From IMG/VR virus record IMGVR_UViG_3300046467_001260, positions 1 through 28,124 of that record: a stretch of DNA of 28,124 nucleotides. One strand, 5' to 3'. Both the position numbers and the translations under genes were made by a program. Below, piece after piece: positions 308-28,124 of the stretch (positions are counted from its first letter, which is position 1; each line of letters begins with the position of its first letter). The notes below the pieces were generated by a model that was not told the origin of the DNA, did not search any database, and saw only the letters and a list, made by a program, of their open reading frames with translations. The DNA is from a virus.

Positions 308-1843
308 TTACCTTTGTCTACCGCCCTTGTTGGACAGCACTATCGGATCACGCCTCTTGTTATCCACGTTGTATTTCTGCATCATCTTTTCCATGAGAGT
401 ATACTCCCCCCCGTAGTCCCATGCGGATTCTTGCGCTCGTTCCCTAGAATACCTATCCGCATAGTCATATAACTTTGCTCCTAGTGAAGAGTCGGGATCT
501 ATACGATTCTCCTCCATCCAAGTCTTCGCCCCGTCAGCCGACATACCGGAGTCTGAACCGTAAGGACCTTCAGCCTCGATAACGGCTTCATGGAAATCCT
601 CTTGATCGAATCCGCTACGTTCCCAATCCAATTCACCACGGGCTACACTTCCCATACCAAAGGGGTTATCGTTTTCTAGCATATAGTTTTTTTCGCCAGG
701 AGTAGCATTTAGCGAAGGAGGTGGGGGTTCAGATGCAGCTCCAGTAGTATCTTTACTTGCTATCCAATCAAAGAGACTACCCGCTTGCTCAGAAATTCTC
801 TCTCCCTGAGAACCTAGTTCGTACTCTGCGGGTGTTTCTAATGTTTGAGCATAGGTTTGACCCCCATAATCCTGATCGTATAGAGCATCTACTAGAGCCT
901 CACTATTAAGAGGACCAGTATAATTCTCAACGAACTCCTTATCATCAATAGTCTTTCCTGTCTCAGCTTCATATTGCCTCATTAGGGGGACAGGATCAGC
1001 GTATTCAAATCCTTCATGAACTACCTGACTTATTAGTACAGGATCCTGTCCTGGAGCGTGCATCGCCCCGTCAGAAAATACAGGTTCGGATACGTCTTGA
1101 AGATATCCCCTCTCATCTCTTTCTAATATTCCGTCGAATTTACTAGCTAGTTCATCGTATTCAGCATCTCCAGTAGAAACTTGCCCTGCTAGATTATCAA
1201 CAGCAGCCTGACTCTGAGCGTCAAGTGCCTGTTGTTGTTCTGGTGTTGTTTCTTGTCCTACTGTCATAGGGACACTACCTATATCATAGGTAGCTGGTCG
1301 GTCAGCTTGTTGCTGACCTAAGTTGGCGACAGCCTCCTCTCGTTTAGCCCTTCGTTCTTCTCCAGTAGGGGAAGCTCCAGCAGGGAAGCCATCTTCATCT
1401 GTGGCGGCAGCCGGACCATAATCAACATCTTCTGGTTTAATTTCTGGTTTAACTGGACCGTAATCAATTCCATCAACTACATTCCTGTCTTCAGAAATTT
1501 CAGGACCAGCTTCAGGTGCGGGAGGAACTCCTATACCTTCTTGATCTAAATCTTCCCTAACTTGGGCGGAACGTTCTGGGTCGCCATAATCTATATCGTA
1601 CCCACCTTGAGCAGATGGGTCTTCCGTAGCTCCACCGCCACCACCTACTTCATCGTAGTATTGTCCACCCTGAGGACCAGTTTGTACATTCGCTCCTTCA
1701 GGAGCTTGTTCGCCAGGTTTGAGATAAACCCTTTTGCCTTGTTTTGCCAACAATCCTTCGCCAAACGGTCCTTTGGCTAGATGTTGGATTTGCGCCTTTT
1801 TTACAAAATTAGGAAATAGCTCGGTTAGGAGGAGCTTCGTCAT
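308..1843 (-). CDS. Acidic, low-complexity head-module protein with a GP.GG.YYD motif (511 aa)
   Basis: Function unknown. Residues 38-64 carry a motif built from RVYLKPG, APEG and TGPQGGQYYD that recurs in the 911-residue protein encoded at 6371-9106. A Gly stretch (67-71) follows, then a long acidic, Pro/Glu-rich and probably disordered region. DYG-centred repeats occur at about residues 82-90, 125-132 and 139-146, with further DYGG copies later. The C-terminal third (about 390-511) looks more ordered and ends in a basic tail. The ATG overlaps the stop of the XkdF-like protease gene by one base (TAATG), so translation is probably coupled. Its position just after the proteases suggests a virion or injected protein, which is inference. 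I recognise no catalytic domain. Confidence 0.75.
   Translation of the reverse strand: MTKLLLTELFPNFVKKAQIQHLAKGPFGEGLLAKQGKRVYLKPGEQAPEGANVQTGPQGGQYYDEVGGGGGATEDPSAQGGYDIDYGDPERSAQVREDLDQEGIGVPPAPEAGPEISEDRNVVDGIDYGPVKPEIKPEDVDYGPAAATDEDGFPAGASPTGEERRAKREEAVANLGQQQADRPATYDIGSVPMTVGQETTPEQQQALDAQSQAAVDNLAGQVSTGDAEYDELASKFDGILERDERGYLQDVSEPVFSDGAMHAPGQDPVLISQVVHEGFEYADPVPLMRQYEAETGKTIDDKEFVENYTGPLNSEALVDALYDQDYGGQTYAQTLETPAEYELGSQGERISEQAGSLFDWIASKDTTGAASEPPPPSLNATPGEKNYMLENDNPFGMGSVARGELDWERSGFDQEDFHEAVIEAEGPYGSDSGMSADGAKTWMEENRIDPDSSLGAKLYDYADRYSRERAQESAWDYGGEYTLMEKMMQKYNVDNKRRDPIVLSNKGGRQR
1652..1732 (-). other. Shared peptide motif, copy 1 (residues 38-64 of the 511-aa protein)
   Basis: Reads RVYLKPG at 38-44, APEG at 47-50 and TGPQGGQYYD at 55-64. 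It matches copy 2 at 7214-7294 at most positions, and the DNA is also visibly similar over the LKPG..APEG part. I recall similar VQTGP.GG.YY motifs in head-region proteins of other viruses, including haloarchaeal ones. No function is known to me. Confidence 0.8.
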
Positions 1844-3453
1844 TAGTTACACCCACAGTCATTGGACTTATTTATATCGAGAGTTTGGTTTTCTTCTCCT
1901 GCCGTAGTGACAGAAGTTCCACGCTGAGTAGTTCCCCTAGATGTAGGGTTATTCTTCATATCAGCCAGTTCGTTCAAAGCCTCTTTTTCTTTAGGCCAAC
2001 CATATTTCTCTCGAATTTTCTCAGTTTCTTCAATAATTTCCTCTGGAGTATCGTAAATGTCGGTCAAAGTACCTTTTGGTCCAACCTCAGCCTTTACAAA
2101 ACTTTTAAGTCGCTCCAAAGAGGAACTTTTTCCCGTAACCATTTTAAAAACCTCCTGTAGGCGTTTATTTAACTCTTCATCATATTCAATAACTTCTTCT
2201 ACCTTATCTTCATTATACTCAGAATATGACTCCAAGCCTGGAGACATACTTCCTTGAGTACTATTATCCATAGATAGAGCATATTCTTCTACCGTTTTAC
2301 CCGCATTGGGTAAATCTTTGTCGGGGTCAAATCCGCCATAGAACTTATTATAGTTCCCGCCAGTGACTCCCCCGCCAGCAACTCCTGAACCAGGTCCAGC
2401 CTGTTCCTTTTCGATACTTATAAGACAACTTCCATCTATACAAGTTCCAGATTGTTTGGAGCCATGTGCCTTTAGCAAATTAAAGTGCGCCCCTTCGTTT
2501 ACGCCTTTTTCACATACAGTAACTTCCGCTAGTTCCAATTCGGTTACTTTGGTAATAATTTTATCTCTACCTTTTTCTTGTACCAACTCGGAATCAGTTT
2601 CTAGAGCGGATCCTGCAATAGAGTAACTACGTATACGTCCTTCTTTTACCTGCTCTTTTACTCTATCGGCAATTTTTGTGTCGTTACGCATCTCTGTTAT
2701 AAAGAACAGATGATTTTCATATACTCCACTCTTAAATATTTGCCCTGCCTTATTTATATATGCGGGTAACGCCCAACCTACCTGAACGTCGGAGTGAAGA
2801 ACCATGGCGTTACGGGTTCGTATATTACCCATAAATTTCCTAAAGGCTCTGTCCATGGCATCCATAGTTATTAGATGCCCTTCCCGATCAACTACTTCAA
2901 CCGATGCGGGTCCACCGACCACCATAGGTTCACCGTTTTCTAGTACATCCCCAGCTAGTTGAGCATATACTTTATTCTTAGGATAATATCTAGAAAGGGT
3001 TAAGATTTCTGCGCCCGTAGAGAATCCGGCTTTATATAACCGTTCATATTCATCAATAGCGTCTTTGATACTGCCTTTAGTAGTCATTCCCCCTGAGGGG
3101 GCAGCTTTAGATAGGTTTAGAAGTTCACCTGTTTGAGTATTTGAGAAATCTAAATAGGTAGATTTTTGAGTTACGACTTCTTCTAGAATCTCATCTTCTT
3201 CTATGTAATCCTGCATAGCTTTAGAAAAATAAGGGTAGTCCCCTTGAGGATACGCTCTAGTAAAAAAGGATTTATCTAGTGAAAACTGGGAAGCCGTATC
3301 AACTAGAAAATCTGCGGAAGATTTAAAATTATTAGTCTTAGGAAACGCTAAAGTTCTAGTAGAAACATCTTTTACTAGGTGTTTTATTTCATCATTAGTA
3401 ACACTATAATTCTTTATGTCTTTACACACCCTAAGCAAGGTGAATTCGTTCAT
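1843..3453 (-). CDS. XkdF-like prohead serine protease with long acidic C-terminal extension
   Basis: A 536-residue protein whose centre (about residues 160-330) matches the XkdF-type putative phage serine protease fold, related to HK97-type prohead proteases. His220 lies in LHSD. Strands follow (GVYENHLFFITEMRND), then a serine in RIRSYSIAG (Ser276 or Ser278; Ser278 fits the family's FSI-like motif). The closing ELELAEVTVCEKGVN segment resembles the family's EVS-like end. Residues 1-155 are an extra N-terminal region. Residues 335-536 are acidic and repetitive and end in CGC, as in a scaffold-like or cleavable tail. Such proteases cleave scaffold and capsid delta domains inside the prohead. 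GAGG lies five bases before the ATG. It directly follows the ClpP-like gene, so two protease folds sit side by side. Confidence 0.82.
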   Translation of the reverse strand: MNEFTLLRVCKDIKNYSVTNDEIKHLVKDVSTRTLAFPKTNNFKSSADFLVDTASQFSLDKSFFTRAYPQGDYPYFSKAMQDYIEEDEILEEVVTQKSTYLDFSNTQTGELLNLSKAAPSGGMTTKGSIKDAIDEYERLYKAGFSTGAEILTLSRYYPKNKVYAQLAGDVLENGEPMVVGGPASVEVVDREGHLITMDAMDRAFRKFMGNIRTRNAMVLHSDVQVGWALPAYINKAGQIFKSGVYENHLFFITEMRNDTKIADRVKEQVKEGRIRSYSIAGSALETDSELVQEKGRDKIITKVTELELAEVTVCEKGVNEGAHFNLLKAHGSKQSGTCIDGSCLISIEKEQAGPGSGVAGGGVTGGNYNKFYGGFDPDKDLPNAGKTVEEYALSMDNSTQGSMSPGLESYSEYNEDKVEEVIEYDEELNKRLQEVFKMVTGKSSSLERLKSFVKAEVGPKGTLTDIYDTPEEIIEETEKIREKYGWPKEKEALNELADMKNNPTSRGTTQRGTSVTTAGEENQTLDINKSNDCGCN

Positions 3454-3466
3454 TAAGCCTCTTGGG

Positions 3467-4090
3467 TTATTTACCCTTGAAAGTATTTTGAGTAATAAAC
3501 TTATCTGCCAATCCGTACTCTATGGTTTCTTCAGCATCTAAGTAAAATTCCCTATCTATATCTTTCATTATAGTTCGTTCTTCTTTAGATACTCCCCATT
3601 CCTTTATCAGTCCAACCAAAGTTCTCTTGACTTTTTGCATCTCTTTACTTTGTATCTCTACTTGCTTCGCATCCCCTCTAGTAGTTCCAGATGGTAAATG
3701 TAACATGGTGTGAGCATTAGGATACACATACCTGCGACCCGGTTCACCCGCAGCCAATAACATAGCCCCCATACTGTAGCAGTTAGAACCAACTGTCCAA
3801 ATAGGAGCCTCAACTGTGTTCATTACATCTATCAATCTCAACCCATCCCTCACCGAACCCCCTGGTGAGTCAATATGTAGAACTATAGGTGTCTTAGAAT
3901 CCTCTAAACTAAGGGCTATAATGGTATCGGCTGTAAAACCAGGATTCCAATTATCTACCCTATCTAGAGGTCCTACTATAGTTCCATATATAAATAAATT
4001 ACGATACTTAGTAGCTAGTCCTTCGTAAAGGCTTTGCATTTCATCCTGCTTAACTACTTCTCCGTCTACTTTTCTTACGGACTGATACAT
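3467..4090 (-). CDS. ClpP-like serine protease (phage head-maturation type)
   Basis: A 207-residue ClpP-fold protein, close to ClpP in length. The oxyanion segment is IDSPGGSV (73-80), the nucleophile is Ser106 in CYSMGAM, and the general base is His131 in HTMLHLPSG. The C-terminal block DIDREFYLDAEETIEYGLAD aligns with the ClpP block that carries the third catalytic residue. At that position Glu181 replaces the usual Asp, although Asp179 is close by. Phage ClpP-like proteins usually mature capsid or scaffold proteins rather than work with a Clp ATPase, and the head-gene neighbourhood supports that here. AGGGG lies about six bases before the ATG. It sits between a small helical gene and the XkdF-like protease. 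Confidence 0.9.
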   Translation of the reverse strand: MYQSVRKVDGEVVKQDEMQSLYEGLATKYRNLFIYGTIVGPLDRVDNWNPGFTADTIIALSLEDSKTPIVLHIDSPGGSVRDGLRLIDVMNTVEAPIWTVGSNCYSMGAMLLAAGEPGRRYVYPNAHTMLHLPSGTTRGDAKQVEIQSKEMQKVKRTLVGLIKEWGVSKEERTIMKDIDREFYLDAEETIEYGLADKFITQNTFKGK

Positions 4091-4964: not shown

Positions 4965-6218
4965 CTATTCAATAAGGTTTGACCAAATCTCAGGTACGTA
5001 ATCCTTGAAGTCATGTTTCTCTTCATCGTATTTCTCTAAATAGATAGTATCTCTACTAATCAGCCCATATTTAGGATGGAAGAATGTTAGAACATGGGTG
5101 GCTCTAGACGCTAATCCTTGTAAGAAAGCATACTCATCTGTACCTTTCAAACACCCGCACATGAGGGCTGTACCTGTTCCTATGTCGTGTTCTTCTATAT
5201 GGTGGTAATGCCCCATAAACATGTATTGGAACGCTTTACCCTGCGGCTGTAAGGCTTGTCTAAGGGAATGCACTTTCTGTTGCATAGACGAACCACGCAT
5301 AGCGTCCCCATGGTGAATCAGTACGTCCCATCCCGCTACATCTATCAATTGGTAGAAGGTCTTAGGAATAGTGAACTTAATATTCTTTTGATTCTTACAG
5401 AATGCAGCTACCCACTGATAAAATAGGAAATCCCATCCAACGTATTTATCTTTATAATAAATTTCTTTCCTTAGTCGTTGGTGGTTACCTACAACAGCAT
5501 CTATATTGACCTCTTCAAAATGCTCGGCAAGGGTCAGCATGGATTGAGCAGTAATGTACGCCCCACGAGCCATGGTCATAATAACGTTGTCTAAATTAGT
5601 TCGGACTAATTCTTCGTGAATTTCTCCCGACACCATATCACCAAGCATTGGTACTTTAAGCGTAGGGATTTGGGCGAAGGACCTTCGAAGACTAACCAAA
5701 TCCAATACTTGATTAGTCCAACCATTAAGCCTTCTAGTAAAGATTTCAAAGTTGTAAGCATTCATGCCCCCCATCTGATCGGAGTCTATGAACTCCCCGA
5801 TATGCAGATCTGTTAAGGGAGCTACGGCTACGATAGGGCTTTCCGAACTAGATTTCGGATTAGAGTAAGAGCGTATCTCAACAGGAGGTAACGCTTGGGT
5901 AGAGTCTTTGATGACATCTACAATGTTTTCATGGGAGAGTTGTTTATTGACTAAATCACTGACACGCTTCTTGAAGTGTGTACTTTCTAATTTAGCTCTT
6001 TTGGTATTTACTTCGTCTTGAAGTAATCCCTCATCTCCCTGAAGTTCAAATATTTTTTCTTCTCTGAGGAGTGAAAGAACCCACCTTCTTATGGTAGAAC
6101 GGTGTCTCCTCTCCCCAAATACTTCTTCATACTGCCTAGCTATTTCTGTCCAATTAGGGTCACCAAAGCCAAACTGCTCCAATAACCAATCTTTCTTTTC
6201 TTGTTCTATAATAAGCAC
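4965..6218 (-). CDS. HTH plus calcineurin-like metallophosphoesterase
   Basis: A 417-residue protein. Residues about 8-58 look like a helix-turn-helix (WTEIARQYEEVFGERRHRSTIRRWV in two helices), and a linker follows. From about 128 on, metallophosphoesterase motifs occur in order: DLH (Asp137, His139), GD (193-194), GNH (244-246), HHGD (302-305) and GHYHH (336-340). This is the full metal-binding set for a two-metal phosphodiesterase or nuclease such as Mre11/SbcD. The GNH is followed by Gln instead of the common Asp/Glu. A DNA-binding domain joined to a phosphoesterase suggests a nucleic acid substrate, which is inference. It starts with GTG at 6216-6218, five bases after GCGAGG. It sits inside the head module, an odd place for such an enzyme. 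Confidence 0.85.
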   Translation of the reverse strand: MLIIEQEKKDWLLEQFGFGDPNWTEIARQYEEVFGERRHRSTIRRWVLSLLREEKIFELQGDEGLLQDEVNTKRAKLESTHFKKRVSDLVNKQLSHENIVDVIKDSTQALPPVEIRSYSNPKSSSESPIVAVAPLTDLHIGEFIDSDQMGGMNAYNFEIFTRRLNGWTNQVLDLVSLRRSFAQIPTLKVPMLGDMVSGEIHEELVRTNLDNVIMTMARGAYITAQSMLTLAEHFEEVNIDAVVGNHQRLRKEIYYKDKYVGWDFLFYQWVAAFCKNQKNIKFTIPKTFYQLIDVAGWDVLIHHGDAMRGSSMQQKVHSLRQALQPQGKAFQYMFMGHYHHIEEHDIGTGTALMCGCLKGTDEYAFLQGLASRATHVLTFFHPKYGLISRDTIYLEKYDEEKHDFKDYVPEIWSNLIE

Positions 6219-6370: not shown

Positions 6371-9106
6371 TTACATATTACCTAAATGTTCTACGGTAGT
6401 CTCAACTCCAACATCTGGAGTATGAACAATAAATTCCATCTCCTCTACGGGTAATTTCTCTACGCATGATGCTATCACATCTCGTATATCAAAAGTTCTA
6501 GAAACTACAACATCTCCATACATAGTAGCTTGCCTAGGATGAGCAGTCCACGAAGCTAGAGGCAAATCTTTTGTTGCTACCCTCTCACCCTTTTTAAGAG
6601 GAACTTGCCTTTTAGTTTGTATTCCTCTATATAATTTTAGCTCTGTAATACCCCGCTCCTCAAAACTTCTTTGAGTATTAGAATAGAGATTTTCTAGGTA
6701 TTGCGTAGCTTGTGTAACCGCCTCAGGAGATGTAAAAGCCTCTGCATTATTACTAACAGATGTTCCCCTATATTCCTTAGACCCATCCTTGAACGTCGTA
6801 TACATAGGTTCATGAACAATGAAATCTTTACTAACCCTATCTACTCTGTCTGAAGAACTGTTAAAGAGGGAAGTCGCAGCATATTGCAGACTAATAGCAT
6901 TTTCAGCTATCGAAGAACCTAACCAAGGCATCAGAAATTTATTGTCTTCAGAAGTAAAGTCAGCGTGTGGATCGCCAGCTTCCGGGTCGTCGTCATATCC
7001 ACTCCCCATCTGTTTTTTATCCCACTCTTCTGTAGACATCCCTATTTCTTCCCGAACTCTTTGGGTTGTTTCATCCCAATCTTGATGAAGTTCCCATTGG
7101 AACCCCCCTGTGGAACCTGTTCCTCTCCCCGCCACTGGTTCAACGTTTCCTTCAGGAAGATCCCGGGTTGATTCGGGAACTTCTAGTTCTTGCAACGAAG
7201 AATCAACTTCTGCATCATAATATTTACCGCCCGCTGGTCCCGTTTCAACTTGAACTCCCTCAGGAGCCTCTTGTCCAGGTTTCAGATAAACTCTATCTTT
7301 CTCTAACTCCATATAGTCGGGTAGGGTATCTACAATTTCCAACGCTAACTTCTTTCCCGCCGTATGATCCATGGGGAAGTGCCACCCAGCCTTTACTCTA
7401 TTAACGCCTATATCGTCGGCTATTTCACGGAAGTTCTCTAGGTGATTAGGGTATATATTACCTAATATTTCAGCAATAACTAAAGCCTGAGTAGAATGCC
7501 CTGAGGGATAGGAAGGGGTATCTATACTAGGACGTATAGCATTTACTACATCATATATGAAATAAGGTTCATCCATTTCGTATTGCCACGGTCTAGGATA
7601 ATTGATTTTATACTTTTTATCCAGAACTATGGTATTGACATCAGATAATATATCTTCCAATAAAGATTCATACTTATCTATACGTAGTCCATGATCTCTA
7701 GCGTATTCATTAAAAAGTCTTAGCATAGTCGTATCCGACTTATTTACTACCTCTTCTAGCCTATCTTTACCCTTATCAGATAAATACCTATAGTCTATTT
7801 GAACTTGTTCTAGGTTGTCCAAAACTTCACTAGAGTTAGGAGGAGGGGGTTCAGCAATGACGTAATTATTAGGGGTTCCTAGCAAGATTTTAAAGGGGCG
7901 ACTTATAATATTTTGATGTTCTTTATTCACAGGTCGATAGAATTTCATAGGGATGGGTTGCGTTTTCCACTTCTCAAGTACCCAATCAAAATCTGATTCT
8001 TTACCTTCGGGAATCAACATAGACTGATTTTCTAAAAAGTCATCTTCCTCTATATTTAGTAAGTCCCCGGTTTCTTCCGACGCTGGCCAAGGCTCTTGTT
8101 TGAAAACTTTTCCGTCACTCTTTACTAAATACATCCCATCCGAAGCTAAAGCAGTTTTATCTCCAGATTCATCTGTATGGATTACCATAGCTTTATCTAG
8201 ACGATTCAAAGCATCGGATTGGGTTTCTGTGTAAAGCTGACCAAGGTTTTCATGCGTTCCTTCGGAGATAAATCTCGATACGTACCTAATTATAGGTTCC
8301 CACACACCTAAGTTATAGTAGTATGTTTCATCCATGCTGATCCAAGCATAATCAGTATGCTCGTCACTAAGGAGAGGTTTAGGGGAATCTAGGGGGACAG
8401 AAGCAATTAGGAATAAACCTAATTTATGCCCTAAATCTGTATCAACTTCTTGTCCTATAACTAAATCAACTTCATTTAATTTTATACCTGTCTCTTCTTC
8501 AACTTCCCGCAACGCTCCTTCCTCAGGAGTTTCCTCTGTATGGATATGACCACCTGGTAAATCCCACCAATCAGATAATCGGTCTTTCAATATTAAAACT
8601 TTATCGGATTCATCTCTGATAAGTACTTTTGCGGTAATCTGAAGGTCGTCAATTTCAGCCTTTTGAAAGATATCTTCCCAATTTAATATAGCATCATGCT
8701 CAAAGGGTATTTCGGGTGGATTTAGAACCTTATATTGGTTTTTCCCGCCTACTTGTGCGGTTCGAGTATATTTGCGATTATCCCCACTACGAGAAGATTG
8801 ACCTAAATCGGTATTTCTCATGTCTTTATGTCCGATACCCATAGACATGTTTTTCTTTAATTCCACTGACTTATCAAGGGCGAATTTCATCAACTCTTCA
8901 GCAAAATTTTCAGGAGAAGTTTTCTTAATGTTTTTCTTTTTTGGTTTTTTAACCTTCCCACCGCCATAGGTAGGAACGAATCCTGAGGATTCTACAGTAA
9001 AAACTGTGCCACCACCATCACCACCATTTCCTCCGCCGCCGTTGCCGCCACCGCCGCCTTCTTTTTGTAGGAAAGTTTTTAGCTGCTCTAATTTTTTAGA
9101 GGTCAT
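6371..9106 (-). CDS. Multidomain Nudix / PAP2 phosphatase / ADP-ribosyltransferase-like protein (polyvalent-type)
   Basis: A 911-residue soluble protein. Residues 17-33 are almost pure Gly/Asn, followed by a Lys-rich patch (51-62). A Nudix domain spans about 155-280 with a perfect Nudix box: Gly186, Glu192, then REVEEETGI at 200-208. A soluble PAP2/vanadium-haloperoxidase-type phosphatase follows, with K498-x6-R505-P506, PSGH at 534-537, and R570-x5-H576-x3-D580 (Asn569 replaces the usual Ser). The motif shared with the 511-residue protein is at 605-631. The C-terminus (about 765-911) resembles R-S-E ADP-ribosyltransferases: Arg827 in LYRG, Ser852 in SWT, and an ExE at 889-891. Residues 285-430 match nothing I know. 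It overlaps the portal stop by 11 bases. Multienzyme proteins next to the portal fit the described phage 'polyvalent' proteins injected with DNA; that role is inferred. Nudix and PAP2 are secure; ART is likely. Confidence 0.85.
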   Translation of the reverse strand: MTSKKLEQLKTFLQKEGGGGGNGGGGNGGDGGGTVFTVESSGFVPTYGGGKVKKPKKKNIKKTSPENFAEELMKFALDKSVELKKNMSMGIGHKDMRNTDLGQSSRSGDNRKYTRTAQVGGKNQYKVLNPPEIPFEHDAILNWEDIFQKAEIDDLQITAKVLIRDESDKVLILKDRLSDWWDLPGGHIHTEETPEEGALREVEEETGIKLNEVDLVIGQEVDTDLGHKLGLFLIASVPLDSPKPLLSDEHTDYAWISMDETYYYNLGVWEPIIRYVSRFISEGTHENLGQLYTETQSDALNRLDKAMVIHTDESGDKTALASDGMYLVKSDGKVFKQEPWPASEETGDLLNIEEDDFLENQSMLIPEGKESDFDWVLEKWKTQPIPMKFYRPVNKEHQNIISRPFKILLGTPNNYVIAEPPPPNSSEVLDNLEQVQIDYRYLSDKGKDRLEEVVNKSDTTMLRLFNEYARDHGLRIDKYESLLEDILSDVNTIVLDKKYKINYPRPWQYEMDEPYFIYDVVNAIRPSIDTPSYPSGHSTQALVIAEILGNIYPNHLENFREIADDIGVNRVKAGWHFPMDHTAGKKLALEIVDTLPDYMELEKDRVYLKPGQEAPEGVQVETGPAGGKYYDAEVDSSLQELEVPESTRDLPEGNVEPVAGRGTGSTGGFQWELHQDWDETTQRVREEIGMSTEEWDKKQMGSGYDDDPEAGDPHADFTSEDNKFLMPWLGSSIAENAISLQYAATSLFNSSSDRVDRVSKDFIVHEPMYTTFKDGSKEYRGTSVSNNAEAFTSPEAVTQATQYLENLYSNTQRSFEERGITELKLYRGIQTKRQVPLKKGERVATKDLPLASWTAHPRQATMYGDVVVSRTFDIRDVIASCVEKLPVEEMEFIVHTPDVGVETTVEHLGNM
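7214..7294 (-). other. Shared peptide motif, copy 2 (residues 605-631 of the 911-aa protein)
   Basis: Reads RVYLKPG at 605-611, APEG at 614-617 and TGPAGGKYYD at 622-631. It lies in the linker between the PAP2 and ART-like domains. Copy 1 is at 1652-1732. Confidence 0.8.
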
Positions 9107-11590: not shown

Positions 11591-13894
11591 TTATCTAATC
11601 GGGCATACGCCCGATTCACATGCTTCGTCTATAAGTTCAGTTTCTACTTCGACTTTTTCATATTTATATAACAAGGACGGGTCAAAGTCTTTAAATGAGG
11701 AACTAATATTATTATACTCCTCTTCGGTGATTTCTTCGTATGGAGCCAATTCGTAAGTTCCACCATCATGTGATAAGAACGATGCCCCCATCCATCTATC
11801 CCAGTTTTTCCACGCCAAGTCTTTTGCTAAATCCCACTCATTCTCCTTAACAGTCATAGTTATAGAAGTGTTGTGGTCGGTATAATTTTCCTGAAATTGG
11901 AAATATGTCTCCATTTGATCCGCTAATGAGACATCGTTTTTAGTGTCACTAACGGTAGCTTTAACGGGAAAATCAATAACTAACGTTCTAGCATTATCCA
12001 TTTTTTCTTCAAAATTGTCGCCGGGTGTACCCACTTCTGGGGATATAGGCCAATCTAAGTCTCTAATGACTTGTACCAAGGGGTCTATTGAACTAATACG
12101 CATACGCCGTATATAGTACGGGCTATGCGACATATGAATTCCTGCTGATACTCCCCCCGCTACTAAACTAAGAGTTCCCTCTGGTTTCACAGTTGTTACC
12201 AATAAAGGGGAGTTGACCCGTAATTCAGCGGCATATCTTACAGCTTCTTCATTAGCTGCCTCTCTTAAGAGTTGCAAAATAGAATTTTGTTTCCTCTTAT
12301 TATATGATACAGCAGAAAACGCATCTTTGACCCCAGTTAGGGACGTTCCTAGCAATCTATCTCGCTGTTGGACATCATTCCACGAAGGCAACTCTAAATC
12401 TACCAACGTCATCCGTAATCCCGCCCTAGCCGACATTTTTTGGGCTTCTACCAAACCCTGCACATCTAAATCTCCACCTTCTACAAAAGCAGTCATATTT
12501 ACAGTAGTTAAATTACATACCCCATGGCTATCTAATAAGATTTCGCCACAAGGATTAGTTCCTACGGCATTTGGTCGCCTTCGAGCGGCTTCTTCTTCAT
12601 TAAAGAATCCAGGTTCGCCCTCGTACCTCATCATATCAAAAACCATATCCAAATATTTTTTATTGGGCTGTTCTGAAAATACTATGGAATTATTGGACAT
12701 TCTACGGTGGTCTAACCCCTCTCTAGAATTTTCCCCATTTTCTACCTTAATGGAATCCCACCACTCAGGCTTCTCGCCCACAGCATCCAGTTGTTTACCT
12801 AATCTCTTATGGGCTTTAAACTGTTCATCTGTCCATAGTCCATTTATGGCATATTTAGCCAATAATGACTCGTAATCGCCTTCACCCATCAAGAATATCT
12901 CTGCGGTTCTCCTAACGCCCCCAACTACCACATTATTTCCGATCAAATTCCCCATATCTAATATGTGGATAGGTCGTGCTTTGTAATACCCCTGATAGGC
13001 TCTTTGTAGAGGAGCAAGAGAGGGATCAATTTGGTTAGTTAGAACTTGATGAAATCCTTCAAACATTTCTCTCAGCGGTTCGGGACCTGAAGCAGTTCCA
13101 CCAAACGTCTTTAATTTTTCCCCTCTAGGACGAACTGAATTATAGTCGAATTTAACTGTTTTTATATGCTCGTATTCATGTGTGGTTAAAATCTCTAAAA
13201 ATAACCTTAAAGCCTCAACCCATCCTTCTTTAGAATCCCCGATATAGATCTTGGCATAGCCTTGTTCTAAATCTATCCACTTAGTATGCTCTAATCGCTT
13301 TTCGGGTGGAGCAGGAACATAGTCATCATGCAATACTTCTAGATTAGCCCTAATAGGTGAAAGTTTTTCCGCCATCTCAGGAGTACATTTGAACCCTACC
13401 CCTGTACCCACTAATAGTAGGTAAAATAGATCTGCTAAATCTTCCCATTTTTCTATTGCTGTAAATGAGCAATTATAATTGGCTAAAGGGTACTTGTCCG
13501 CAACATGATTTTCTCCCCCACCAATCCATAGGGTTCTTCCACTAACAAATTGCTTAGTATTGTACATAGAATCGAAAAGAGATTCAGCCTCTTTATTTAA
13601 ATCGGCTAAATTAGGAGTATATCCTATTTTAATCATGTGGTTGTACGCCAACCCCACGTTATATTCCACAGCTCTTTTACAAGCTTCAGCCCAAGTTTCT
13701 CTTCGACCCAATTTATTAGAAAATCTTGAATAAGTTCTATAAAATACAAAAGTTCCCATCGGACTTAAAGGAGACTCTTCTTGTTCGTATTTATTTATAA
13801 AATCGGGAGGAAGTTTAATGGGGGTATGTGCGTCGTGATCGTGATAATGGGGGCGTGATTCGGTTTGGGTAGATGGGGCAATAGATGTCGTCAC
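11591..13894 (-). CDS. nrdJ: Adenosylcobalamin-dependent (class II, RTPR-type) ribonucleotide reductase
   Basis: A monomeric class II ribonucleoside-triphosphate reductase that makes dNTPs for phage DNA synthesis using coenzyme B12. Numbered from the GTG at 13892-13894 (767 residues; the Lactobacillus RTPR is about 740), the redox cysteine pair is Cys142 (NYNCSF) and Cys460 (GVCNLTTVN). The radical Cys449 and Glu451 are in NPCGEI, and the C-terminal reducing pair Cys759/Cys764 is in CESGVCPIR. The N-terminal FVFYRTYSRF segment is typical of RTPR. The GTG start is chosen because TAGGAGA lies six bases upstream; an earlier TTG frame to 13933 overlaps terL with no site. It stands between terL and portal, an unexpected place for a nucleotide enzyme. 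It is apparently intact, with no intein. Confidence 0.93.
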   Translation of the reverse strand: MTTSIAPSTQTESRPHYHDHDAHTPIKLPPDFINKYEQEESPLSPMGTFVFYRTYSRFSNKLGRRETWAEACKRAVEYNVGLAYNHMIKIGYTPNLADLNKEAESLFDSMYNTKQFVSGRTLWIGGGENHVADKYPLANYNCSFTAIEKWEDLADLFYLLLVGTGVGFKCTPEMAEKLSPIRANLEVLHDDYVPAPPEKRLEHTKWIDLEQGYAKIYIGDSKEGWVEALRLFLEILTTHEYEHIKTVKFDYNSVRPRGEKLKTFGGTASGPEPLREMFEGFHQVLTNQIDPSLAPLQRAYQGYYKARPIHILDMGNLIGNNVVVGGVRRTAEIFLMGEGDYESLLAKYAINGLWTDEQFKAHKRLGKQLDAVGEKPEWWDSIKVENGENSREGLDHRRMSNNSIVFSEQPNKKYLDMVFDMMRYEGEPGFFNEEEAARRRPNAVGTNPCGEILLDSHGVCNLTTVNMTAFVEGGDLDVQGLVEAQKMSARAGLRMTLVDLELPSWNDVQQRDRLLGTSLTGVKDAFSAVSYNKRKQNSILQLLREAANEEAVRYAAELRVNSPLLVTTVKPEGTLSLVAGGVSAGIHMSHSPYYIRRMRISSIDPLVQVIRDLDWPISPEVGTPGDNFEEKMDNARTLVIDFPVKATVSDTKNDVSLADQMETYFQFQENYTDHNTSITMTVKENEWDLAKDLAWKNWDRWMGASFLSHDGGTYELAPYEEITEEEYNNISSSFKDFDPSLLYKYEKVEVETELIDEACESGVCPIR

Positions 13895-13904
13895 AGATTG
13901 TCTC

Positions 13905-15605
13905 CTAAAGGGATTCTTCGCCGTACATTTCAACGGATTTAGCGTAAATATTGCCCAGCGCAGCAGTCAGCTCTTCGTCTTCAGGCATGTCTTCATTATA
14001 CGCTACATGATCGGATATTGGGTCTTGTTTTTCAGCGAATTTACCACTAAAAACTTGAGCATCCCCGACTCCTGTATAAGATGCGGGACCTTCTAATTTA
14101 TCTGCCGCCAAACATGCCAACCCTATACTCCAAAATGAGTCCCCGTGACCATTCGGTGTCTCTGCTGCGTATAAGTCTCTGTTTACCACCAAAATTTGCT
14201 CTTTCTGCACAGCATCAGGTATTAAATGAAGTTTTTCGCTAACAACATAATGTTCAAATTTTGTAGCCATATTATTTTTGGCTCTACGAGTAAAGTGCAT
14301 CAAATCCCACTTTCTATTCAATCCTCTTAAATGTCTTATTCGTTCAGTGTTCTCTTGCTCGCTTAATCCCTGCTCATTATCAGTTTGCAAGCCCCTTTCT
14401 TCTAACGCCCTGTCGGTGTTATCTATAAAACCTTTATCTATTTGGAAATTAGTCGCTACTTGGTTCAATATATCAACTTGTGCCTGATAGGACATTCCTC
14501 TGATAAATTCATGGTAAAGTTGAATAATATGCCCATCAGTTTTACGCTTTCCAAATATAGATAAATGAGCCGGATGGCGACGTTTTCCTACGTCGTACCC
14601 TGCCACAACCCATTCATAATCTTCTGTCAAATCTTCAACGTGATCCAACGTCCTTCTATATATTTTTAGGGAATCATCTTCACATTTTTCAATTTCTTCA
14701 TCCGTAAAATATCCATCAGTTCCAAAATGGGGTTGCAACATGTATTCTGAAGCAAAAGAACTTCTATTACTTTTCTTGTACGCCTCTAGCCATTCTTTAT
14801 CCCTAATTTCAGGGGCTAGAACATGCCTACCTGGAACAGGATCAAACGCTGGTAACACTACGCTATTAAATTTATCGTCACCTATTAAAGTAGCTAGCAA
14901 ATCACCGGGAGCCATTGGAGTTCCTACCACAACAGTCGGAGTTCCAGGATTAGGAATAGGCATCAACGCTCTAAAAAATAAATCTTTAATTTTGGGGAGT
15001 TCGCCAGGATCTATAGGAGAATTAGCGTCTTTCAAAATATCGTCAACTACCATTCCCGCATTAGTGTGTAACCCTCTTTTGAATTGGGTCACTCCAGCCA
15101 TTTCTACCCGTACAATTCCCCCATCTGCTGTCTGATATCGTATCGAGTTATCTGCGCCTCTAGCCAAATCTCTAGTAAACCACTCATTAGATAAAATAGG
15201 GTTTGCTCTAATTTCATCCTTCATAGTTCTAACGTGATATCTCACCATATCATGGTTATATGAGGCATACAATAAACTTTTACTATTTGCCTTAGTTCTC
15301 ATGAGTTGCCAAATAGTGTATCCATGACCTAAAAGGGTGCTTTTCCAGTGACCACGGGGTAAAACACAAACAAAGTTCTGACCTTCATCTAAAGCCCTAT
15401 CCAATTCATCACATATAAACCCAACATGCCAGATATCAAATAATTTAGGTTGAGGAAAACTCAATCTCCAAATATCTAGCACAAAATCTTTAAAAGATGC
15501 AGGAACATCAATAGTTGTATCATTAGTTAAATCTGAAACTAACTCATTTACGGCATCTGTCCACGATAATTTGGCATTTTCGTTTTTGGAAGCAATGTTA
15601 GCCAT
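13905..15605 (-). CDS. terL: Terminase large subunit (TerL)
   Basis: The ATPase/nuclease packaging motor, 566 residues from the ATG at 15603-15605 (MANIASKNENA), which has GAGG six bases upstream; an in-frame TTG at 15617 is less likely. The Walker A motif is PRGHWKST (about 83-90), with adenine-binding and motor segments around LLYASYNHDM. The Walker B is MVVDDI (about 185-190), with coupling motif GTPMAPGDL. The nuclease domain starts at VVAGYDVGKRRHPA (Asp about 338), continues with GFIDNTD, and closes with GHGDSFWSIGLA. All catalytic acids appear present. It overlaps terS by 8 bases, and the reductase follows after 10 bases. A headful or cos mode cannot be decided from this sequence. Confidence 0.93.
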   Translation of the reverse strand: MANIASKNENAKLSWTDAVNELVSDLTNDTTIDVPASFKDFVLDIWRLSFPQPKLFDIWHVGFICDELDRALDEGQNFVCVLPRGHWKSTLLGHGYTIWQLMRTKANSKSLLYASYNHDMVRYHVRTMKDEIRANPILSNEWFTRDLARGADNSIRYQTADGGIVRVEMAGVTQFKRGLHTNAGMVVDDILKDANSPIDPGELPKIKDLFFRALMPIPNPGTPTVVVGTPMAPGDLLATLIGDDKFNSVVLPAFDPVPGRHVLAPEIRDKEWLEAYKKSNRSSFASEYMLQPHFGTDGYFTDEEIEKCEDDSLKIYRRTLDHVEDLTEDYEWVVAGYDVGKRRHPAHLSIFGKRKTDGHIIQLYHEFIRGMSYQAQVDILNQVATNFQIDKGFIDNTDRALEERGLQTDNEQGLSEQENTERIRHLRGLNRKWDLMHFTRRAKNNMATKFEHYVVSEKLHLIPDAVQKEQILVVNRDLYAAETPNGHGDSFWSIGLACLAADKLEGPASYTGVGDAQVFSGKFAEKQDPISDHVAYNEDMPEDEELTAALGNIYAKSVEMYGEESL

Positions 15606-24779: not shown

Positions 24780-25216
24780 TCCTTCAAATCTCCAGACGCA
24801 TTTGTAGCTAAAGTGTCTGCAATCTCTTGTAAAGGATGTCCTTTATGACCTGGAACCCATACATGGCTAATATCCTTTAATAAATCCCTTATTGTGAAAT
24901 ACCTCTCCCACAAATCTGCCTCATCAACTGGGTAGTTAGTAAACTTAATGCAATTATCTATTACATACTTACTGTCTGAATAGATGGAAACCCTATCCGA
25001 TAAATCATATAAGTGTACCACTTCTAAACCCTTAATAACCCCCATTAATTCCATTCGGCTATTAGTAGTATTGGGTTCACCGCCTGACATAGTAGAAACA
25101 ATATTTTGGTCGTCATCCGTTATTACAACACCCCATCCACCTACACCACCAGGATTAGTTCTACAAGAACCATCGGTATATATTTTTATTTTAGAATTTG
25201 GCATCGTGTTGTACAT
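24665..25216 (-). CDS. rnhA: Ribonuclease HI with basic C-terminal tail
   Basis: A 183-residue RNase HI. The catalytic set is Asp15 (YTDGSC), Glu56 (RMELMG), Asp81 (SDSKYV), His124 (VPGHKGH) and Asp134 (ADTLA). It removes RNA primers or RNA in hybrids at the fork. Residues after about 145 form an extra Lys/Arg-rich tail, part of it encoded inside the primase overlap. The start is uncertain between the ATG at 25216, very close to AGGA, and the ATG at 25204 (MPNSKIKIYTDG). Both overlap the helicase 3' end. Confidence 0.92.
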   Translation of the reverse strand: MYNTMPNSKIKIYTDGSCRTNPGGVGGWGVVITDDDQNIVSTMSGGEPNTTNSRMELMGVIKGLEVVHLYDLSDRVSIYSDSKYVIDNCIKFTNYPVDEADLWERYFTIRDLLKDISHVWVPGHKGHPLQEIADTLATNASGDLKEWLEKKSRNRKRKFNFTRGKTSSTKQDSKPRLKEILSE

Positions 25217-26459
25217 CTTCCTGCATTAACTCTTGAACATCTCCAATATCTACATCCCAGTGTAGCACACTTTTATCTTTTATTTCTACATCATCTCGTT
25301 GCTTCATATAATACAGGTATCTTTGGTTATCCTCATCTTCAACTTTACTCATCGCAAAAGCTATATCACTAGCCCTAACTAAAGCATCCCCATTAGCCAC
25401 TTGATTCAACTTGGGTGGTTTAAATAAATCCACCGCTTCTCTACCTGCTTGAGTGGTACAGAACACAGGAATCTCATGCGCCATTGCTATATTTTTCAAA
25501 CCTTTAAATAGATTGTCGTTCTGTTCCCACTTAGCTCTACTGGAATCGTCACTAAGTAAGTAAACCCCATCCACTACTACCAAATCAGGAGAATATTTTC
25601 TCACCAAATTTCTAATAGTAGACACACTCAACGCATCAAATCCTAAGTGGTGGGGGAATAAAATGTTTCTGGAATCCATGGCAGTAAGGAATTCTCTGTA
25701 CTGCTCTTCATCTATACCTTCTTCACCTCTACGAAGTTTAGTTAGGGAAAACTCATATCCTAGTAATTTCCCCAAGAAAGAGTCCATTCTCATAGACATA
25801 GCTTTCACAGGCATTTCTGTGGATATTAATAACGTTTTATACCCTTGCTTCATAGCTACAGCAGCCACCTTTACAGACATGAAAGATTTACCCACCGTAG
25901 GTCGAGCAAAAAGTGAATATAATTCACCAGGCATCCATCCTACACCAAGCCTATTTAGAGTCTTGAAGGGGGTTGGTATACCCAACATACCTAAAGACCT
26001 ATCCTTACGCTGTGCGACCCTCTGAGAGTACTCTGATAGCCTGTCTATACTCCCTGAGTCATACACTTCTATATCATCATCTACCGTAGCAGTTACAGAC
26101 TCTAATTCTTGTATTAATTTCTCTACCGCTTGCTGTGGATTATCACCTTTAATTTTAGGAACCCACTCAGTAGCAGACTGCACAGCAGTTCTATACATAA
26201 GTTGATGTTTCAATTGACCTGAAAAGAAACTTACATCGGCTGCATCAGCAGTACTTTGGTCTAACTCAGGATATTTAGCCGTTAGTATAGCCCGTGAAGG
26301 CACTTGGCGACTTTCATCTAACTCATCTAAAATAAATTGAAACGCTTCACCAAAAACTGCAAAATGTTGTGGGGTTACGTTAATCTTCTTCAAATCGGCA
26401 TAAGATGAGATATTTAAAACTATCCCGCTTTCTACATAATTGTAAGAAAGGTTGCTCAC
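25191..26459 (-). CDS. DnaB-like replicative helicase
   Basis: A 422-residue RecA-fold hexameric helicase. A helical N-terminal domain spans about 20-125. The ATPase domain follows: Walker A ARPTVGKS (185-192; Ala replaces the usual first Gly), the STEM motif (213-216), Walker B LVVVDG (293-298) and the sensor TTQ (335-337). It unwinds the fork in partnership with the primase encoded two genes downstream. It starts with GTG overlapping the preceding stop (GTGA), eight bases after AAGGAG. It ends a few bases into the RNase H gene. Confidence 0.92.
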   Translation of the reverse strand: MSNLSYNYVESGIVLNISSYADLKKINVTPQHFAVFGEAFQFILDELDESRQVPSRAILTAKYPELDQSTADAADVSFFSGQLKHQLMYRTAVQSATEWVPKIKGDNPQQAVEKLIQELESVTATVDDDIEVYDSGSIDRLSEYSQRVAQRKDRSLGMLGIPTPFKTLNRLGVGWMPGELYSLFARPTVGKSFMSVKVAAVAMKQGYKTLLISTEMPVKAMSMRMDSFLGKLLGYEFSLTKLRRGEEGIDEEQYREFLTAMDSRNILFPHHLGFDALSVSTIRNLVRKYSPDLVVVDGVYLLSDDSSRAKWEQNDNLFKGLKNIAMAHEIPVFCTTQAGREAVDLFKPPKLNQVANGDALVRASDIAFAMSKVEDEDNQRYLYYMKQRDDVEIKDKSVLHWDVDIGDVQELMQEDVQHDAKF

Positions 26460-26869
26460 TTAGCCCACTCCTTTAACTCTTCTTCTATTTCTGATATCCG
26501 TTTTCGGTCAGATGCAGATGGGAACCACCTAGTAGATGCTTCTTCATACTCATACCAAAGATTTTTTTGCCTCTTGTTGCCTCTATCTTTTACTAACCAC
26601 TCTAGCTTAGGGTGAGCAGAGTGAGGATCATAATCCGCAAAGTTCGAGCAGAATTCGGAGATAATAGTTCCCGATTTAGTTGCAACCTCTATAGCAAGTA
26701 AAATAGTATACACATTATAAGTATCAAATAAAACCTTTAGGTCGTGTAAATCTAACCCTCCCCATCGTAATGAGACATACGAATTAGATTGATGCAATTT
26801 AAACTGGGAGTTCCAGCAAGCCAATAAATCCTTACTAGTATATTTCTCAGGATTTTTTCGTCTAGGCAA
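26456..26869 (-). CDS. Small protein upstream of the replicative helicase, unknown function
   Basis: A 137-residue protein with a basic N-terminus, TSKDLLACWNSQFKLH, and several Trp and Tyr residues. It ends in a charged helix (RKRISEIEEELKEWAK). It contains no internal Met; the only usable start is TTG at 26867-26869, with a weak ribosome site, overlapping the upstream gene by 8 bases. Its stop overlaps the helicase start (GTGA). Translational coupling to a DnaB-like helicase would suit a loader or accessory factor, but there is no sequence signature for that. Confidence 0.65.
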   Translation of the reverse strand: MPRRKNPEKYTSKDLLACWNSQFKLHQSNSYVSLRWGGLDLHDLKVLFDTYNVYTILLAIEVATKSGTIISEFCSNFADYDPHSAHPKLEWLVKDRGNKRQKNLWYEYEEASTRWFPSASDRKRISEIEEELKEWAK

Positions 26870-27266
26870 TTTCGCTTCTAACTTTCATGAGGATAGAACC
26901 TAACTCAGCCTCGTTTTTACCACCCAAAAGTTGCGTCCCTGTACCCATCAGTATCTTAGCCAACTCTTTGTTAGATTCAAATTTTAATTTTACTAATTGA
27001 TGTAGTGTAGCATACTTTACATCATTCCAGTTGGGTCTTATCCAAATATCTTCTAAAAGGTTTCGCACTTCTGCTAAAGAAGTTTTAGATATTTGAAATT
27101 TTATCGCCCTATCGGAAACTTTAGCAGCTTGGAAAGCATGTTCAACAGAAGGGTAGGTAATACCTTCCACTATAATGGAAGATAGATGAGAATTCCTCAA
27201 GCACTTGTAAGAACCTTTTAGTTCAAGTCCTTTACTTCTCCAATTCTTACTCACGGTAACCACCAT
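26862..27266 (-). CDS. NADAR-family (YbiA-like, DUF1768) protein, probable ADP-ribose N-glycosidase
   Basis: A 134-residue protein with the NADAR core. IIVEGITYPSVEHAFQAAK (31-49) carries the family's YPS.EH..QA signature. RPNWNDVK (77-84) follows, then KFESNKELAKILMGTG (95-110) and the closing ELGSILMKVR (121-130). Family members cleave N-glycosidic bonds of riboflavin intermediates or remove ADP-ribose from guanine bases; the latter can counter DarT-type toxins. This copy is short: the usual stretch with a WG motif between the TG and LG.LM blocks seems contracted, so activity needs proof. It starts with ATG inside the upstream SNF2 gene (20-base overlap) and has a weak ribosome site. Confidence 0.8.
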   Translation of the reverse strand: MVVTVSKNWRSKGLELKGSYKCLRNSHLSSIIVEGITYPSVEHAFQAAKVSDRAIKFQISKTSLAEVRNLLEDIWIRPNWNDVKYATLHQLVKLKFESNKELAKILMGTGTQLLGGKNEAELGSILMKVRSEIA

Positions 27267-28124
27267 CTATTAACTTGACATAATCTCTAACAGATAATTT
27301 TACTTCTTGCATTTGTTCTGCGCCTTCCATAAAATTATTAGATTCCGCTAAACGAGAATTATATACTTTTTGTATTCCTTCATCTATTGTACCAATTAAA
27401 TATGGTAAAAGTACGTTAACCGTCTTTTCTTGCCCCATACGCCATAATCTATCCTCACGCTGAACCATAGTACCAGGATTATGGACATAGCCATAATGAA
27501 CTAAGGTATCTGCCCCTACCATATCCAATCCAAATTTTCCAGCGTCCGTGGATACCAAGATTCCCTTTTTAGCTTTATTAAAATCTTTAACCACCTCAAA
27601 ACGGTTATTCTTTTCTTTTCCTGATATGTAATAAGGAGTATCAAAATACTCTTTCAACATTCTAGCACTTCTTTCAAAGAAGGTGAAGACAACTAATTTA
27701 TCTACAGTATCATATAATTCTTCAAGCCATTGTCTTTTAGCCTTATTTTGTAGGTTCCCATACATCCCCTCAACAAAATACCTAACATCTAGCGTAGCCG
27801 ATCCTACAGTTTTATGCTCTTCTTTACTACCACTTTCTACCCACGCCTTAAACTCAGAAGATAATTTAGAGTACTCTGTTTTTTCTTCTGAAGACATCTC
27901 CAAAGGAACGGGGGTGTAAATTTTGGGAGGCAACTCTGATAGCTTCTCTAATTTGGTTCTACGTAAAACAAACGGAGAAGTTAAAGCGTGTAATTCTGGT
28001 AACTTTTCTTTCTTAGCACCAATTACTTTCCCATTCCAATCGACTTCACAATACCTTTTAGTAAATGTATATACATTATCAGGGATTACCTCAGGACGGA
28101 TAAATTTCATTATAGAGAAAAATT
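27247..28124 (-). CDS. SNF2-family helicase, C-terminal part (cut by window edge)
   Basis: The frame stays open through an ATG at 28110 to the window edge (FFSIMKFIRPEV), and this reads as normal SNF2 sequence, so the gene continues beyond the window and its N-terminal half is missing here. Visible parts are LTSPFVLRRTK; a helicase_C lobe with LVVFTFFERSARMLKEYF; motif V GILVSTDAGKFGLDMVGA; and motif VI MVQREDRLWRMGQEKTVNVLLPY with the Q..DR..R.GQ pattern. SNF2 proteins in phages are DNA translocases involved in replication or recombination. It is the first gene of the visible run. Confidence 0.92.
   Translation of the reverse strand, partial: FFSIMKFIRPEVIPDNVYTFTKRYCEVDWNGKVIGAKKEKLPELHALTSPFVLRRTKLEKLSELPPKIYTPVPLEMSSEEKTEYSKLSSEFKAWVESGSKEEHKTVGSATLDVRYFVEGMYGNLQNKAKRQWLEELYDTVDKLVVFTFFERSARMLKEYFDTPYYISGKEKNNRFEVVKDFNKAKKGILVSTDAGKFGLDMVGADTLVHYGYVHNPGTMVQREDRLWRMGQEKTVNVLLPYLIGTIDEGIQKVYNSRLAESNNFMEGAEQMQEVKLSVRDYVKLIDGGYRE

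Follow-up and report, generated by a model that had tools for sequence, protein, structure and literature searches.

A phage lineage with a conserved NADAR-fold protein that lacks half of the family's active site

The stretch of DNA analysed here, hereafter the window, is a 28,124-base viral fragment from IMG/VR (IMGVR_UViG_3300046467_001260) that encodes a NADAR-fold protein of 134 amino acids, with an ATG start, on the minus strand at 26862..27266. As judged by alignment, this protein and its relatives in the same phage lineage have lost half of the known NADAR active site. The initial annotation had proposed that the NADAR protects phage DNA by removing ADP-ribose from guanine, or that it manages a modification made by the phage's own ADP-ribosyltransferase (ART). 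This interpretation is partly supported, and it overlooked the missing catalytic end of the protein. Phage NADARs directed against host ADP-ribosylation, as well as head-packaged ART or Nudix proteins in phages with an early NADAR, have already been published; what appears to be new is the lineage-wide internal deletion, which removes half of the active site.

Membership of the NADAR family, as first annotated, is borne out by profile and structure comparisons alike. The protein matches Pfam PF08719 (E=4.7e-14, scoring 53.4 bits where the cut-off is 35.1) and PHROG 1017 (E=5.6e-14), and its nearest solved structure is YbiA (2b3w, E=6.3e-8). An AlphaFold model built from an alignment of 57 sequences reached a predicted local distance difference test (pLDDT) score of 82.7. 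In a Foldseek search of the PDB, the sole significant matches of this model were YbiA 2b3w (template modelling score, TM, 0.78) and the ADP-ribose-bound Phytophthora nicotianae NADAR 8bau (TM 0.76).

The PF08719 match ends at profile position 119 of 163, since the domain's catalytic end has been deleted. Compared with the closest viral NADARs, approximately 14 to 20 residues are gone in all four distinct lineage sequences, and alignment with comparison NADARs places the missing last catalytic strand and GDxxWG loop at residues 114-118 of the window protein (26913..26927, minus strand). The NADAR of one relative, G013, features a smaller loss, but an unrelated basic stretch, YPKKHRRKRNK, occupies the segment. 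Beyond the deletion the C-terminal helix (ELGSILMKVRSEI) is intact, and the event is therefore an internal deletion rather than a truncation. A frameshift or truncation as the source of the short C-terminus was also ruled out by the separate lineage contigs, all of which are without the segment.

In a comparison set of 72 distinct sequences, which leans to complete NADARs because one of the two peptide patterns used to gather it lies just past the deleted segment, the equivalents of E125 (the last-strand Glu), D130 and W133 occur in 69, 72 and 70 sequences, respectively, versus none of the four from the window lineage. The key last-strand residue, which is Glu in YbiA, Asp in BC4488 and His in T4-type phages, is absent from all four, the strand being deleted or replaced, and with the clamp formed by D130 and W133 two phosphate-site residues are gone. 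A substitute acid in the shortened loop was considered and rejected, as the four sequences carry E, D, D and N with none conserved. The lineage also differs at position F26, the SNF phenylalanine, which is Ser in all four sequences and F in 68 of the 72, and its GR loop is altered. T4 gp30.3 aligns poorly in this comparison. Among 40 cellular genome loci, a motif scan showed no case of the same deletion; the DxxW/DxxY segment was recovered in most of them, while the rest were unmatched by the pattern or cut at contig ends.

Structural and biochemical data on characterized NADARs indicate what has been lost. The ADP-ribose ligand is held by E43, K50, R79, W89, R93, D130, W133 and E125, with the pyrophosphate bound by R79, W133 and D130 (Schuller et al., 2023; PMC11543638). 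Three NADAR subfamilies are known, and they carry Glu, Asp or His at the E125 position; the Escherichia coli C7 NADAR requires this residue (D171), as well as K95, for efficient de-ADP-ribosylation of guanine, and mutating the last-strand acid abolished efficient activity (PMC11543638). The other half of the pocket is retained in the window protein through E42 (codon 27141..27143), the equivalent of P. nicotianae E43 and C7 E88 at the distal ribose, K49 (27120..27122), the equivalent of K50 and C7 K95 at the phosphate, and W80 (27027..27029), the equivalent of W89, all on the minus strand. Each of the three residues is invariant across the 72 comparison and four lineage sequences.

The altered gene is not a pseudogene. 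Between the window and two relatives (G001 and G004) the ratio of nonsynonymous to synonymous substitution rates (dN/dS, or omega) of the NADAR is ~0.1, compared with 0.08-0.09 for the adjoining open reading frame and 0.03 for the helicases, all of these values being approximate because dS is near or beyond saturation. The NADAR is a maintained gene under purifying selection. In a tree whose bootstrap is not fully settled, the four lineage NADARs form one clade (support 100/97) on a long stem (0.93) among the Glu-type NADARs, which fits a single derived loss. They diverge down to 51% identity, with the G013 and G015 NADARs identical, and G001 and G004 93% identical to each other. Their net charge is +7 to +11 and their isoelectric point (pI) 9.6-9.9, against a mean charge of +1.6 (standard deviation 4.1) and a median pI of 8.6 in 77 comparison sequences. 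On these grounds, the window NADAR is a selected, derived variant of single origin.

The window NADAR is probably a poor or non-canonical hydrolase. We tentatively favor, with less than even confidence, a non-eraser NADAR with affinity for nucleic acid and for an ADP-ribosyl-type group, acting in counter-defence; both kinds of binding are suggested because half of the pocket is retained and the surface is basic. The protein, encoded in a phage replication operon, would descend from an ordinary hydrolase-type NADAR. In a single ancestral event, or a series of them, the lineage would have lost the last catalytic strand, the GDxxWG loop and the GR loop, exchanged the SNF phenylalanine for Ser and become strongly basic, keeping the half of the ADP-ribose pocket marked by E42, K49 and W80. 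Produced together with the replication proteins, and presumably early, the protein could use its basic surface to bind nucleic acid while continuing to recognize an ADP-ribosyl group or a related nucleotide moiety, which it would not hydrolyse efficiently. It would then serve as a reader, shield or sponge instead of an eraser, countering a host attack based on NAD+ or ADP-ribose. In a more specific version, its target would be ADP-ribosylated phage DNA or an alarm molecule of the ADP-ribose type, to be bound and then shielded or sequestered while replication proceeds; this seems unlikely in that detail. Three NAD+-related genes or domains of the lineage, NadA, Nudix and the ART candidate described below, were counted in favor of the non-eraser explanation.

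Several points weigh against it. Some hydrolysis of another substrate is possible, because E42 and K49 are intact and the C7 E88A mutant showed a mild effect in vitro. Charge by itself does not prove nucleic-acid binding, and the omega values are subject to the saturation noted above. A purely structural role in the replisome, with no ADP-ribose ligand, is also possible. Phage NADARs are being annotated by homology as DNA de-ADP-ribosylases, and a conserved, selected NADAR lacking the needed residue and loop means that family membership alone does not give function. If the protein does bind without cutting, it would counter ADP-ribose-based immunity in the manner of a sponge or shield; if it is a reader, it would be a non-catalytic counter-defence in a lineage that also carries NadA and a virion-module Nudix-PAP2-ART protein.

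The structural alternative draws on the surroundings of the gene, some of whose neighbours were named from reading of the sequence. The main genes of the window all lie on the minus strand, in the order SNF2-type helicase, NADAR, ORF137, DnaB-like helicase, RNase H, primase, polymerase, recombination genes, terminase, B12-dependent ribonucleotide reductase, portal, Nudix-PAP2-ART protein and proteases; this order agrees with the placement first described, an early or replication context beside helicase genes for the NADAR and the head module for the ART/Nudix protein. The C-terminal part of the SNF2-type helicase (27247..28122, continuing past the record end) matches Pfam Helicase_C (E=1.9e-16) and SNF2-rel (E=2.3e-7) as well as PHROG 62, DNA helicase (E=6e-48). 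ORF137 (26456..26869, 137 amino acids), a conserved open reading frame and syntenic partner that overlaps the NADAR stop by 8 nucleotides, is without a Pfam or PHROG family match in profile searches and is 80% identical to its G001 counterpart. The DnaB-like helicase (25191..26459), one of the genes named by reading, is 92% identical in G001. The order SNF2-NADAR-ORF137-DnaB is fixed in every relative covering the region.

This fixed slot among helicase genes and the overlap with ORF137, together with the basic charge and the loss of pocket residues, would suit a fold recruited to bind DNA or protein as a subunit near the SNF2 and DnaB helicases, with no ADP-ribose ligand. Such a scaffold would not call for the pocket-lining E42, K49 and W80 to stay invariant, as they have although the lineage diverges to 51% identity, and we regard it as doubtful, though a serious rival.

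An ordinary counter-defence enzyme is slightly harder to sustain. Orphan antitoxin-like enzymes with which phages oppose DarTG1 are reportedly described by Johannesman et al. (2025; cited in PMC12548467). A NADAR factor of this kind is named AdfN. By analogy, the window protein could still hydrolyse the guanine-ADP-ribose made by host DarT1-type toxins, with E42 and other residues standing in for the missing acid. Phage orphan NADARs (T4 gp30.3, those of T5-like phages and AdfN) share with it the fold, a stand-alone gene, a replication or early neighbourhood and the pocket E and K, and the retention of E42, K49 and W80 agrees with this. However, close phage homologues keep LxEGNxxGDxxWG, whereas the window lineage has lost this segment, carries Ser in place of F26 and is strongly basic. 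Every lineage member has lost the strand that bears the acid, along with the D130/W133 clamp, no conserved acid takes their place in the shortened loop, and loss of the equivalent acid left the C7 NADAR without efficient activity (PMC11543638). T4 gp30.3, which hydrolyses guanine-ADP-ribose in vitro, did not rescue DarT1 toxicity (PMC11125620). The window protein resembles the DarG1 NADAR antitoxins (BC4488 subfamily) and E. coli YbiA in its fold and in the equivalents of E88 and K95, but it lacks the catalytic D171 or Glu equivalent. No linked DarT is present in the window, unlike for DarG1, and the protein's length leaves no room for the N-terminal extension with which DarT1-linked NADARs bind DNA. 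We consider this explanation rather unlikely, though again a serious rival; the guanine ADP-ribose removal first ascribed to the protein is known in the family and is put in doubt for this member.

The initial annotation also linked the NADAR to a protein of the head module. This protein (6371..9106, minus strand, 911 amino acids), encoded directly after the portal gene, combines a Nudix domain, a PAP2 phosphatase domain and an ART candidate. The Nudix domain (8324..8641, PF00293, E=4.8e-17) has a complete Nudix box, GX5EX7REUXEEXGU, and the PAP2 domain (7355..7624, PF01569, E=2e-6) has the K-x6-RP, PSGH and R-x5-H-x3-D motifs. In the ART candidate (6374..6973) the residues R (LYRG), S (SWT) and ExE (EME/EFE) follow RSE-clade order and are invariant in six homologues. 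No Pfam family matched this region over its cut-off; the ART family DRAT gave weak matches below cut-off in 5/6 homologues (E=0.0036 to 0.028). An AlphaFold model of the region from six sequences was too poor (pLDDT 58) and found no Foldseek match, all matches in a PDB profile search had E above 0.1, and hhalign found no relation to T4 Alt. Of the domains first annotated, the Nudix and PAP2 are confirmed, and the ART part is a motif-level candidate.

Phages use NADAR, Nudix and ART proteins in conflicts over NAD+ and ADP-ribose; fusions of ART and Nudix with head proteins are frequent, and the domains NADAR, Macro, SLOG and Nudix co-occur above chance (Iyer et al., 2022; PMC9503650). T4 encodes a comparable pair, the head-packaged Alt and the NADAR gp30.3, in genes close by; as in T4 and the arrangements of Iyer et al., the window places ART and Nudix at the head module and the NADAR in the replication or early region. 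In contrast to T4, the window joins Nudix, PAP2 and the ART candidate in one polypeptide, and this candidate is unrelated to Alt by profile comparison. Among the 20 lineage records searched, the NADAR was found in 5 and the Nudix-PAP2-ART gene in 13, and both occur in 5/5 records covering both loci; the other records are short and give no evidence of gene absence. This co-occurrence is confined to one lineage, and is thus linkage by descent rather than independent evidence.

It is very unlikely that the NADAR undoes what the phage's own ART, packaged in the head, has modified, although the 5/5 co-occurrence and the T4 pair speak for it. ExE is a motif typical of protein-arginine ARTs, and NADARs are not known to reverse protein-arginine ADP-ribosylation; the proposed circuit is weakened by this mismatch of linkages, since ExE ARTs generally modify protein. 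NADARs cut N-glycosidic ADP-ribose on guanine (PMC11543638), and T4 Alt itself acts on protein. NADARs are also common in viral contigs without this ART gene, with at least 496 NADAR stretches compared to 5 ART-gene loci; INPHARED has 229 records with a NADAR. A scan of the same kind confined relatives of the 911-amino-acid gene to the window lineage, and cultured phages gave matches of Nudix length only. Least probable of all is a YbiA-type N-glycosidase of riboflavin intermediates, for although TIGR02464 matches (E=9.5e-11), the 42 bits lie far under the curated cut-off of 73.7 and the catalytic segment is likewise lost.

Other features of the lineage were noted alongside these loci. All four relatives (G001, G004, G013 and G015) encode the quinolinate synthase NadA at full length (PF02445, E=8e-95; L002:4234-5463 in G001), ~4 kb upstream of their NADAR gene and thus in a region beyond the end of the window. 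NadA is rare among phage records, with 9 matches, mostly in short or unannotated records, and its presence suggests phage support of NAD+ synthesis. The B12-dependent ribonucleoside-triphosphate reductase (11591-13933, minus strand; TIGR02505, E=8e-108) is unusually placed, flanked by terminase and portal.

In the head module, two to three proteins per phage that are otherwise unrelated share a 30-residue motif, RVYLKPGQEAPEGVxVETGPxGGxYYD (7214-7297 and ~1646-1738, both minus strand, in the window; L015:9836, 10792 and 15969), which is possibly a head-targeting or processing tag. G001 encodes a 1332-amino-acid protein in its structural region (L014:3941-7939) with no Pfam match; reading of its sequence points to a kinase-like part and, through FRG, STS and EQE, to a C-terminus resembling another RSE ART. 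Lastly, a metallophosphoesterase-like protein (4965-6218, minus strand) and a ClpP-like protease (3467-4090, minus strand), both named by reading, sit between the Nudix-PAP2-ART protein and an S78-type prohead protease (1843-3453).
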